This document shows, one piece after another, positions 2,285 through 6,511 of a stretch of 64,000 nt of DNA. This stretch comes from an uncultured Actinomycetes bacterium (GTDB lineage: Bacteria > Actinomycetota > Actinomycetes > Nanopelagicales > Nanopelagicaceae): the NCBI GenBank assembly GCA_903836945.1, contig CAILSO010000010.1, positions 1-64,000 of the forward strand, read 5' to 3'. The notes under the pieces are model-generated. The model worked only from the letters and a program-made list of their open reading frames with translations, made no database searches and was not told the DNA's origin. Position 1 is the first letter of the stretch; each line of letters opens with the position of its first letter. The position numbers and the translations under genes were made by a program.

Positions 2285-2455
2285 ATGTGCAGCAGAACTA
2301 CCTGCCGTAAGTGCGGAAAACCAACTTGGTCCGGTTGCGGAAACCATGTCGAGCAAGCTCTCAAGGGCGTTGCAAAGAAAGACCGTTGCCAAGGACATCA
2401 GAATGATCCGAAAGAGCCAGGCTTCTTCTCTAAACTATTCAGTAAGAAAGCATAA
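2285..2455 (+). CDS. 56-residue Cys-rich small protein (CxxCGKxTWSGCGxH family), copy 1
   Basis: ATG 2285 follows an agaagga ribosome site. The peptide starts MCSRTTCRKCGKPTW and contains SGCGNHVEQAL, then a further Cys and His (DRCQGH) and a basic tail (FFSKLFSKKA). The paired CxxC and CG(N)H, with the later C..H, looks like a small zinc-binding knuckle; that is inference. Similar short actinobacterial proteins are known to me only as hypothetical. It lies between the CoA-disulfide reductase and thioredoxin genes and is clearly paralogous to the next gene. Confidence 0.75.
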   Translation: MCSRTTCRKCGKPTWSGCGNHVEQALKGVAKKDRCQGHQNDPKEPGFFSKLFSKKA

Positions 2456-2466
2456 GGAGACCACTA

Positions 2467-2616
2467 ATGTGCAGTGCAGTTCGATGCGATAAATGCGGAA
2501 AAGCAACTTGGTCTGGCTGTGGCCAGCATATTGAAGAAGCGCTTGCTCCTTTTGGCGAAGATCAACGCTGTAAATGCGATGCCGAACTCTCTTCATGGGT
2601 GCCAGGCCAAAAATAA
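2467..2616 (+). CDS. 49-residue Cys-rich small protein (CxxCGKxTWSGCGxH family), copy 2
   Basis: ATG 2467 follows aaggaga. The protein repeats the plan of its neighbour: MCSAVRCDKCGKATW, then SGCGQHIEEAL, then QRCKCD. Both copies share CxxCGK-TWSGCG-H-E-AL, so this is a tandem duplication that has diverged outside the motif. The stop TAA ends at 2616 and the thioredoxin ATG follows at once at 2617, so the three genes are tightly coupled. A metal-binding or thiol-relay role in the sulfur operon is possible but unproven. Confidence 0.75.
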   Translation: MCSAVRCDKCGKATWSGCGQHIEEALAPFGEDQRCKCDAELSSWVPGQK

Positions 2617-2994
2617 ATGGCAGCGCTAAATGTAAAGAGTGAAGAGTTCGAATCTATCGCTCTCAAAGATGGAATCGTCTTCGTCGATTTCTGGGCTGAA
2701 TGGTGTGGACCATGCAAAATGTTTGGTCCCATTTTCGAAGCGGCATCCGAAAAGCATCCGGAATTCACTTTTGCGAAAGTGGATACCGAAGCCGAGCAGC
2801 AATTAGCTGCGGCCGCAGGAATCACCTCAATTCCAACTTTGATGGCATTTCGCGACGGCATCCTTGTCTTTAGAGAAGCTGGCGCTCTGCCCGCTCCCGC
2901 TTTTGATCAATTGATTGCGGCAATCCAGGACATTGATATGGACGACGTCCGCAAGCAAATTGCAGAAGAGGAATCAAAGAAAATTGCAGAATAA
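2617..2994 (+). CDS. Thioredoxin
   Basis: 125 residues with the canonical redox site WCGPCK (W29, C30, C33), the preceding VDFWAEW strand and the cis-Pro segment SIPTLMAF. It is a cytoplasmic dithiol reductant; no signal peptide is seen. It carries a 15-20 residue acidic/basic helical tail (VRKQIAEEESKK) beyond the usual fold of about 105 residues. The start directly abuts the stop of the preceding Cys-rich gene. In this operon it may reduce persulfidated or disulfide products of the rhodanese/CoA-disulfide reductase, by inference from position. Confidence 0.92.
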   Translation: MAALNVKSEEFESIALKDGIVFVDFWAEWCGPCKMFGPIFEAASEKHPEFTFAKVDTEAEQQLAAAAGITSIPTLMAFRDGILVFREAGALPAPAFDQLIAAIQDIDMDDVRKQIAEEESKKIAE

Positions 2995-3766
2995 ATCCGG
3001 AGATCTTTGGCGTTCCGAGCTAGCTAAATGGGCAATACCCCAAGAAATTCTCGATCAAGCGCCAACGAACCCTTGGATTCATCCCCCTGCAATGTTTCAA
3101 ATTCCCGACGTGATTGAAGATTCACCGTCACATCAACGTGCGCGCGAAATTCTTGGCCCTGATTCATCTGTATTAGATATCGGTTGTGGCGGCGGCATTG
3201 CTGCCTTCGCTTTAACTCCACCGGCAACTCACGTTATTGGCGTTGATCATCAACCCGAAATGCTGACTATGTTTGCAGAAAACGCAGCAGCTCGCGGAGT
3301 CACAAGTGAAACAATCGATGGATTCTGGCCGGAAGTGGAAGATGAAACTCCAACCGCCGACGTCGCGATGGCGCATCACGTTGTCTACAACGTCCAAAAT
3401 ATTGAAGATTTTTTAATCGCACTTAATTCACATGCGACCAAGCGCGTAGTTCTTGAATTTCCTCAGCGCCACCCGTTAAATGCGGCAGCACCGTTATGGA
3501 AACATTTTTGGAATTTGGATCGCCCTACTGGTCCGGCGCCAGAATTACTTATGAAAGTACTCGCTGAACTTGGTTTTGATGCAAAGATAGAATATTGGGA
3601 AGGGCGAATGCGTGAAGAGCCCAACCTTGAATCGGAAGCGCACTTCTCACGAATACGTCTCTGCCTGCCAGAATCACGCGAAGGTGAGATGCTGGAATTT
3701 CTCAAGCAAACTCCAAAGAAGAAGATTCGCGAACTTGCGACTGTCTGGTGGGATGTGTCCCACTAG
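2984..3766 (+). CDS. Class I SAM-dependent methyltransferase
   Basis: The SAM-binding motif I is VLDIGCGGGIAAFAL, followed by the acidic residue of motif II in VIGVDHQPEML. I place the start at TTG 2984, inside the end of thioredoxin (11-base overlap), because gaagagga precedes it and the N-terminal WRSELAKWAIPQEIL segment looks conserved; ATG 3092 would remove it. About 260 residues. The substrate cannot be read from the sequence. It closes the sulfur operon, but co-transcription does not prove a sulfur role. Confidence 0.8.
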   Translation: MQNKSGDLWRSELAKWAIPQEILDQAPTNPWIHPPAMFQIPDVIEDSPSHQRAREILGPDSSVLDIGCGGGIAAFALTPPATHVIGVDHQPEMLTMFAENAAARGVTSETIDGFWPEVEDETPTADVAMAHHVVYNVQNIEDFLIALNSHATKRVVLEFPQRHPLNAAAPLWKHFWNLDRPTGPAPELLMKVLAELGFDAKIEYWEGRMREEPNLESEAHFSRIRLCLPESREGEMLEFLKQTPKKKIRELATVWWDVSH

Positions 3767-4146
3767 ACAAGCTTTCGACTGGAAATTTAATGCCACAAGG
3801 TCAACACTCGTATTAGCGATTCATTCTGAATTAGAAGATGTGAGGAAGTGGTTCCCATTAAGGCACTCCGATTGATGGCATGGAAGTCCCAAGCTGAATT
3901 TGGAAGTATCGGAGAGCTAGGACCCTTTCCAAATTGTGGCACAACAAGAATCGAAAATAACAAAATGTCCACACCCGTGAGTCATATAACCGAACCAACA
4001 TGTGCCGACTCAAACAATAGCTCCAATTTATCTGCTAAAAATACTTTTGATTCCGCATTTAAATTCCTCTGCGATTTCTCCTGCAATTATCCAAACTCTT
4101 GATGCTGAGGTATGAGAGCAGTGTCATAAATGGGCCTTCTAGCAAG
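3767..4146 (+). other. Long intergenic stretch without a convincing gene
   Basis: About 380 bases between the methyltransferase stop and the -10-like box of the next gene, long for this packed window. Short open frames exist on both strands (for example 3848-4102 +), but none has a ribosome site, family motif or coding-like composition I can defend. A frame at 3768-3875 (QAFDWKFNATRSTLV...) reads like possible decayed coding sequence. A small RNA or gene remnant is possible; I see no clear hairpin terminator. Confidence 0.4.
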
Positions 4147-5476: not shown

Positions 5477-5552
5477 GCGCTTGTAGCTCAACGGATAGAG
5501 CATCTGACTACGGATCAGAAGGTTAGGGGTTCGAATCCCTTCAAGCGCACCA
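5477..5552 (+). tRNA. tRNA-Arg(ACG), 3' half reconstituted by an integrated element
   Basis: The cloverleaf is complete. The acceptor stem GCGCTTG pairs with CAAGCGC, the anticodon stem is TCTGA/TCAGA and its loop CTACGGA gives anticodon ACG (Arg, CGN after A-to-I editing). The T arm is AGGGG TTCGAAT CCCTT. CCA is encoded at 5550-5552. From 5506 on the sequence is shared with a second copy at 8549-8593, so it is the attachment site of the element downstream; in the distal copy the 3' end reads CACATAG, without an encoded CCA. Confidence 0.96.
5506..5550 (+). repeat. attL core (tRNA-Arg 3' half)
   Basis: 45 bp identical to 8549-8593. It runs from the anticodon stem through the acceptor stem to the first bases after the discriminator. 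Identity ends at 5551, where this copy continues with the encoded CCA and the other does not. Confidence 0.93.
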
Positions 5553-5644: not shown

Positions 5645-6511
5645 TTATTCAACAGCCTTTGCGAATACAAGCGAGACATTAATTGCTTGGTCTGCGTCTA
5701 TGTGGGCGTAAGTCTTTGCCGTAACCATAGGGTCGCGGTGACCTAAGCGGTGAGCCACAATGTGAAGCGGAGTTCCAGCCTTGAGCAACTGCGTAGCGTG
5801 GAAGTGTCTAAGGTCGTGGAAGCGTTGCTCCGGCAGATTCACTCGGTTCTTAATCTTTGTGAATAACTGAGTGGGAGTCCCGTAGTAAATCGGTTCTCCA
5901 AACTCTGTTGCAAAGATGTAGCCGGTTTCATTCCAGAGGCTTCCAGCCCGTATGCGTTCTTCTAACTGACGCTTTCTGTGCTCTCTTAAGATTTCCACCG
6001 TTTCGGGATCAAGAGAGATTGTGCGCCTTCCTTCGCCACCTTTCGTAGAAGATTGAACGACACTTTCACCTCGAACAATTAGACGGTTCTTCGAGATAAC
6101 AAGTGAGCGATTCTCGAAATCAAGGTCGCTCCATTTTAAGGCGAGCAATTCGCCTTTTCTTGCACCTGTGTAAACCGCTAGACGGTAAATCGCAAAGAGA
6201 CGATGTGCGCTCGCTTCTGTAAGAAATGCTCGCACTTGTTCAGGAGAAAACGGCTCATTTACCTTTTTGTCATTCTTTGGGACAGGAACGCCCTTTGCAA
6301 CATTCTTTGGAATGATGCCTTCTACATCAACAGCGTAAGCGAGCGCATTTTTCAGCACCGCGCCAATGTATTCAACAGTCCTTCCAGATAGTTTTTCTCC
6401 CCTAGCACCGCCATTCTCAGAAAGTTCCCGATACATCTTCGCGACATCTGCCGGGCGCAACCTTGCAATCGGCATCTTCCCAAGTCTCGGAATAATGTAA
6501 GAATCAATCAT
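5645..6511 (-). pseudogene. Phage-type tyrosine recombinase (integrase), 5'-truncated
   Basis: 288 residues hold part of the SAM-like core-binding domain and the whole catalytic domain: Arg in YTGARKGELLALKW, the HDLRHFHATQLL box (H..R), and GHRDPMVTAKTYAH with the Tyr nucleophile. Full-length relatives have about 70-100 more N-terminal residues (arm-binding domain and start of the core-binding domain). Here the reading begins at [11 protein letters not shown] and a stop lies four codons upstream. Just beyond it the purH-derived sequence starts, so the gene is broken at that junction. It reads toward tRNA-Arg. A shortened product without arm binding is possible, but recombination activity is doubtful. 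Confidence 0.88.

Follow-up and report, generated by a model that had tools for sequence, protein, structure and literature searches.

Small cysteine proteins associated with CstR-type persulfide operons in Actinomycetota

The operon and its two small genes

The window analysed in this study is a stretch of 64,000 nucleotides from an uncultured member of the Nanopelagicaceae (contig CAILSO010000010.1). At its start, the plus strand carries in this order the tail of a sulfide:quinone reductase (SQR) gene, a 48-aa open reading frame (ORF), a CstR-type repressor, a CoA-persulfide reductase with a C-terminal rhodanese domain (CoAPR), the small genes A and B, a thioredoxin and a methyltransferase. 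Judging from the sequence, A and B sit in a tight operon with persulfide-handling genes: the SQR tail, CoAPR–rhodanese and thioredoxin genes share one strand, with gaps of at most 24 bp. The first feature (2-172, +) is the C-terminal end of an SQR-like flavoprotein, with a 54-residue match of 81% identity to the C-terminus of the protein encoded at L060:2003-3463, which in turn matches the solved SQR structure 3sx6 (4.6e-36) and the NCBIfam family SQR_III (7e-16, under its cut-off). Because the contig begins inside this gene, the operon promoter lies outside the window. The 48-aa ORF (182-328, +), the stop codon of which overlaps the CstR start, has no match in Pfam. Its homologues (48-57 aa) occupy the same place in L060, L052, L045 and L053, directly after the SQR gene in relatives, and share the pattern NESIAxAPLPTxKTLxxRxNL..RF..IN..M..MIRKGHH. 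In L052 another small ORF (3865-4041), which we take to resemble a YHS-type metal-binding domain, lies between the conserved 48-aa ORF and CstR.

The repressor (328-621, +) belongs to the CsoR family (PF02583, 2e-21), and its best PDB matches are 7mq3 and 7mq1. The next gene (623-2260, +) encodes a protein with PF07992, PF02852 and PF00581 that matches PDB entry 8a56, 'Coenzyme A-persulfide reductase', at 1e-156. It scores 460.8, below the NCBIfam cut-off of 578.8 for CoA-disulfide reductase, and combines a CoA-disulfide reductase domain with a rhodanese domain and both catalytic cysteines. These two, C42 and C503, are its only cysteines, and correspond to C42 and C508 of Enterococcus faecalis CoAPR, both of which are required for catalysis according to the available text of PMC9405070. 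Downstream of A and B are a thioredoxin (WCGPC; 2617-2994, +; PF00085 3e-23, TIGR01068 over cut-off) and, last in the run, a SAM-dependent methyltransferase (2990-3766, +; PF13649 2.3e-9; start codon not fixed), which follows the thioredoxin in many relatives as well. Farther along the window, a tRNA-Arg (acg) at 5477-5552 is followed by a tyrosine integrase gene (5645-6511) on the opposite strand, a combination typical of integrated elements, which may mark one here.

Gene A (2285-2455, +) encodes a long form of 56 aa, with a zinc-knuckle-like core and a C-terminal amphipathic tail, GFFSKLFSKK; gene B (2467-2616, +) encodes a short form of 49 aa whose core ends in RCKCD, without the tail. Both ORFs sit exactly where the original prediction had placed them, and the reductase and thioredoxin that it named as their flanks are correct; it overlooked the CstR-type repressor, the SQR tail and the amphipathic tail of A. 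AAGGA-type ribosome-binding sites precede both start codons, that of B being overlapped by the stop codon of A, and the thioredoxin ATG directly follows the stop of B. The motif that the two proteins had been said to share is real, and they are true paralogues: 20 of 38 core residues are identical in an ungapped comparison, and a search of the proteins of the same genome with A recovered B at E 2.8e-10, together with a third copy on another contig (1.6e-10). The pattern C..CGK.[TS]W.GCG occurs twice in the six frames of the window, as against no occurrence in 50 shuffles. The head-to-tail duplication holds for the window, but such tandems are found mainly in its relatives; none of 40 loci outside the taxonomic family of the window has two copies in the same orientation no more than 150 bp apart.

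An alignment of 204 distinct family members (of 206, one 179-aa reading and one spurious 3-bit match being dropped) has C2, C7, C10, G17, C18, H21 and C35 invariant in all 204, although the invariance of C10 and C18, like that of W15, is partly by construction, since members L041-L120 were found with a pattern fixing these three positions. A further His or Cys stands at position 38 (or 37), with CxxH in 130 of 158 long forms and CxC in 42 of 46 short forms. There are thus seven conserved Cys/His positions within fewer than 40 residues, a pattern that fits a metal or thiol site and agrees with the minimal metal or thiol modules suggested in the original prediction; the conserved residues outside the putative ligands are K12, T14, W15 and G17. 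A cysteine always directly follows the initiator methionine, and removal of the methionine by aminopeptidase would expose an N-terminal cysteine. AlphaFold models of A and B, of modest confidence (pLDDT 76 and 72, pTM about 0.46), have the same topology (strands 3-6 and 13-16, helix 22-25), which suggests an arrangement in which a helix comes after a zinc knuckle. A structure search of model A against the PDB returned 12 matches, all with E >4, and Z reached 2 in none of 25. From the ligand pattern and the predicted fold, the family probably binds zinc.

An amphipathic GFFxRLFG(K/R)-like tail ends 141 of 158 long forms and none of the 46 short forms. Escherichia coli MinD ends in KKGFLKRLFGG, its membrane-targeting sequence, and the long forms share with it a GF(L/F)x(K/R)LFG pattern at the extreme C-terminus; however, the resemblance is confined to this tail, and membrane binding by the small protein is a prediction. 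In helical moment, the tail exceeds shuffled sequences by a small margin (0.574 versus 0.497), so the membrane claim rests on the motif and its position, and on these grounds tethering of the long form to the membrane seems somewhat likely. As the tail is present in long forms and absent from short ones, the A/B pair looks like membrane-tethered and soluble versions of one protein.

Distribution and genomic neighbourhood of the A/B family

Genes of the A/B family were found in 35 of 60 relatives, in 122 of the 296 class genomes and in 30 of the 246 phylum genomes searched. Thus, the family extends widely through the Actinomycetota, where confinement to close relatives had been set beforehand as grounds for abandoning the idea. 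Searches of 72,556 plasmid records gave 67 matches with the first query and 77 with the third; every genus among those listed is actinobacterial, a few records being shown without a name. The genome_contigs collection contains at least 593 stretches with the pattern, 581 of which encode relatives of A and B, and two of the best 80 of these 581 have Acidobacteria titles and may be misbinned. On the viral side, one unannotated phage record matched, as did 4 of the 22 candidates from viral contigs, and the best PHROGs value was 0.012.

The suspicion that such short genes are easily missed by annotation was borne out on the plasmids. By a tally that uses an incomplete plasmid gene table, 49 of 60 places listed have no annotated feature, nine are called 'hypothetical protein' and two lie in unannotated records. 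Neither A nor B matches any family over the cut-off in Pfam or NCBIfam, and among 71 members scanned the best values were 0.0032 (Pfam) and 0.019 (NCBIfam), each in a few members and none convincing. A sequence search of the PDB with A gave no match; a profile match (0.41) to a cerato-platanin-like protein in the PDB was taken as chance. No description of the family or its peptide motifs was found in a search of the literature, mostly open-access. As far as these searches show, the operon type is already known and its small cysteine-protein component is apparently undescribed.

For the analysis of neighbourhoods we took 40 case loci outside the taxonomic family of the window, each consisting of the best A/B-family match of its genome with 6 kb on each side and lying more than 150 kb from the contig start (40 of the 41 eligible among the matches listed; G295 was left out), and as controls 40 stretches of the same contigs at a distance of 120 kb. 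The neighbour profiles were built mostly from other loci; some case genomes also supplied training loci (L113 and L147, for example, look like one contig), which slightly favours the cases. Six genes were counted as core persulfide genes (CstR, rhodanese, CoA-disulfide reductase, DsrE, TauE and persulfide dioxygenase); 33 of the 40 case loci contain at least one of them in the 6 kb on either side, as against none of the 40 controls. The link to sulfur genes is therefore upheld, the scattered neighbourhoods that would have spoken against it not being seen. By gene, CstR/CsoR-family regulators are present in 30 of the case loci, rhodanese in 20, persulfide dioxygenase, TauE and DUF302 in 14 each, thioredoxin in nine and CoA-disulfide reductase in six, each being absent from all 40 controls, and the nearest profiled neighbour is no more than 300 bp from the A/B-family gene in 26 loci. 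The expected co-occurrence is seen for rhodanese and, less often, for CoA-disulfide reductase. Adjacency to CoA-persulfide reductase, found in six loci, is one arrangement among several, and A/B-family genes more commonly have CstR, rhodanese, TauE or persulfide dioxygenase beside them. On named plasmids the neighbours are a CsoR-family regulator, rhodanese, an FAD-dependent oxidoreductase, an MBL-fold hydrolase, DsrE and TauE. Among 265 class genomes outside the taxonomic family of the window, a CstR-type regulator occurs in 82 of 92 with an A/B-family gene, compared with 59 of 173 without one.

The situation within the taxonomic family of the window is different. Here 30 of 31 genomes have an A/B-family gene and only nine have CstR; persulfide genes are missing from the surroundings in 19 of 20 loci analysed, and an operator (described below) was near the gene in none of the 20. 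One chromosomal site, flanked by genes for a FUSC-type exporter and, according to Pfam, a zinc-type oxidoreductase, holds the whole operon in L051 (2290-8264), with the short form at its head, parts of the operon in L008 and L055, and just the short gene between both flanks in L239-L243, L245 and L246; in L244 and L247 FUSC alone of the two flanks was detected at the cut-off. One reading is that the operon was lost stepwise, the short gene surviving last, and the opposite direction, gain, is also possible. Since short copies persist without the operon, the short form probably functions independently of it and has a role where the operon is gone. Conversely, 59 of 150 CstR-positive genomes have no A/B-family gene, and the persulfide circuit of Streptomyces coelicolor is described with four genes in the available text of PMC7533328; the family is therefore not essential to the pathway.

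Regulator type and operator

Copper-sensing CsoR proteins use a Cys-His-Cys site. The window repressor has the two thiols of a CstR (C45 and C74), with serine (S70) at the histidine position, and in all 87 aligned CsoR-family neighbours of A/B-family genes both cysteines are kept and the third position is A, S, G or T, never His. Because no neighbouring regulator has this histidine, we rejected a reading of the locus as a copper CsoR operon. The spacing of Cys 45 and 74 equals that of Cys 37 and 66 in ScCsoR of S. coelicolor, a two-cysteine repressor that polysulfide releases from ATACCn6GGTAT sites, as described in the accessible part of PMC7533328.

The palindrome ATACCCC-N1or2-GGGGTAT, which is compatible with the ScCsoR site as given there, was searched for with up to one mismatch unless called perfect here. 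It is present in 19 of the 40 case loci and none of the 40 controls, and in 63 of the best 80 of the 581 genome_contigs loci. Of 42 A/B-family genes, 10 have it in the 300 bp upstream, as against none of 2000 control windows. In 30 genomes chosen by hand among family carriers, most of them with CstR and hence not a random sample, perfect sites occur in 24 genomes and number 36; 11 of these lie within 300 bp upstream of an A/B-family gene (0.005 expected) and 20 within 2.5 kb (0.045 expected). Four of the seven case loci without core genes, namely L154, L178 and L179 (solitary genes) and L186 (a divergent pair), have an operator 35-93 bp upstream and no core gene within 6 kb, and so look like distant regulon members. 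No perfect or clear site was found in the genome to which the window belongs, the assembly of which does not include the promoter of the window operon.

In Streptomyces, the copper regulator CsoR binds a nearly identical palindrome (PMC3902906, as far as its available text goes), and the site alone is therefore no proof of CstR control; solitary A/B-family genes could still be under copper control. Perfect palindromes far from A/B-family genes (G082, G212, G066, G150, G039, G178 and G269) mostly have A/T centres (AA, TT or AT), and those near such genes mostly have centres containing C or G, as noted post hoc and by eye. The centre of the palindrome may distinguish the sites of copper CsoR from those of CstR. 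Since the neighbourhoods, the His-less regulators and the placement of the operator agree, the A/B proteins almost certainly belong to the CstR (persulfide-sensor) regulon.

Possible function and relation to known systems

The explanation that we favour as a whole, at about even chances, is that the family consists of zinc-thiolate proteins of the CstR regulon that act as acceptors or carriers of sulfane sulfur, with A held at the membrane and B soluble. When the cell senses persulfides or polysulfides, A and B would be made under CstR control. The predicted core of two strands and a short helix would be built around the C7-x2-C10 knuckle and C18-x2-H21, together with C2 and with C35 and H38 or C37, and would bind one zinc through C7xxC10, C18xxH21 and/or C35 with H38/C37. 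One or more thiolates left free, C2 or C35, could accept sulfane sulfur, which might then be handed to rhodanese/CoA-persulfide reductase, to persulfide dioxygenase, or to thioredoxin, which would reduce it. Form A would be held by its MinD-like amphipathic helix near SQR, which makes persulfide, and form B would be free in solution. Sulfane-sulfur transfer itself, suggested by genomic context, is plausible at somewhat less than even chances. A bolder proposal, which we regard as rather unlikely, is that these zinc-thiolate microproteins form a class of their own among dedicated carriers of sulfane sulfur. In membrane-tethered and soluble versions, they would gather persulfide sulfur at the membrane and deliver it to rhodanese, CoA-persulfide reductase or persulfide dioxygenase, a role analogous but unrelated to that of TusA/DsrE-type carriers.

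The leading alternative takes A and B for small chelators of Zn(II)/Cu(I), produced in sulfur stress, which would protect or re-supply metal stripped or precipitated by sulfide and persulfides instead of carrying sulfur. The seven closely spaced Cys/His positions would suit such a metal buffer, and the palindromes that precede two family genes, G271 and G039, have AT at their centre. However, all 87 neighbouring regulators are of the CstR type, the 15 neighbours inspected around six isolated loci include no metal pump or chaperone, and metallothioneins have a higher density of cysteines than the A/B family. The same regulator family and operator do serve copper control too, in what is accessible of PMC3902906, and we consider metal buffering possible but rather unlikely. 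Ranked second is a structural zinc finger that binds a partner (rhodanese, CoAPR, SQR or a regulator), the long form recruiting this partner to the membrane with its amphipathic tail. The strand-strand-helix models of both A and B agree with such an adaptor, and the conserved K12, T14, W15 and G17 would suit protein contact, but the neighbours differ between loci and provide no constant partner; we consider this reading improbable.

The solitary short copies between the FUSC-type exporter and the quinone-oxidoreductase-like gene, seen in many of the streamlined relatives examined, could instead point to a housekeeping protein that is co-regulated with the persulfide genes and acts elsewhere, for example in redox or quinone metabolism. 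The operon of L051, and in part those of L008 and L055, occupy that same site. Against this, the regulon and neighbourhood link is strong in other genomes, and the FUSC and oxidoreductase genes, which in relatives border the place of the operon, need not be functional partners; we regard a housekeeping role as very improbable.

The closest described systems are the ScCsoR/PDO/TauE/rhodanese circuit of S. coelicolor (PMC7533328) and CstR/CoAPR/RhdA/RhdB of E. faecalis (PMC9405070), which have the same sensor type and enzymes and the operator class seen in relatives of the window. In contrast, the small cysteine protein is not among the components described in the available parts of these two sources, and here it is present in one or two copies, inside the operon or under the same control. 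The C(P)XCG zinc-finger micro-proteins of Haloferax (PMC11241148 and PMC10716476, as excerpted) are likewise shorter than 70 residues, with a CxxCG knuckle and predicted zinc. Their definition requires two C(P)XCG motifs, however, whereas A and B have one CxxCG each and fall outside it; the A/B family combines a single CxxCGK knuckle with GCGxH and RCxxH/RCxC, and its sulfur-operon context is fixed. PerR of Synechococcus senses sulfane sulfur at a structural zinc site, and thereby offers a precedent for persulfidation of zinc-bound cysteines, but it is a DNA-binding regulator (PMC9952342, from the text available).

Persulfide homeostasis in actinobacteria is an active field of research, and in these bacteria sulfane sulfur affects antibiotic production, according to the accessible text of PMC7533328. 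The A/B family is a likely overlooked part of the sulfide/persulfide detoxification system, and illustrates how short genes escape annotation. A widespread, unnamed small protein under a persulfide sensor would be a missing component of the pathway, and the fact that streamlined relatives keep the short form by itself suggests that it has a role also where the pathway has been lost.
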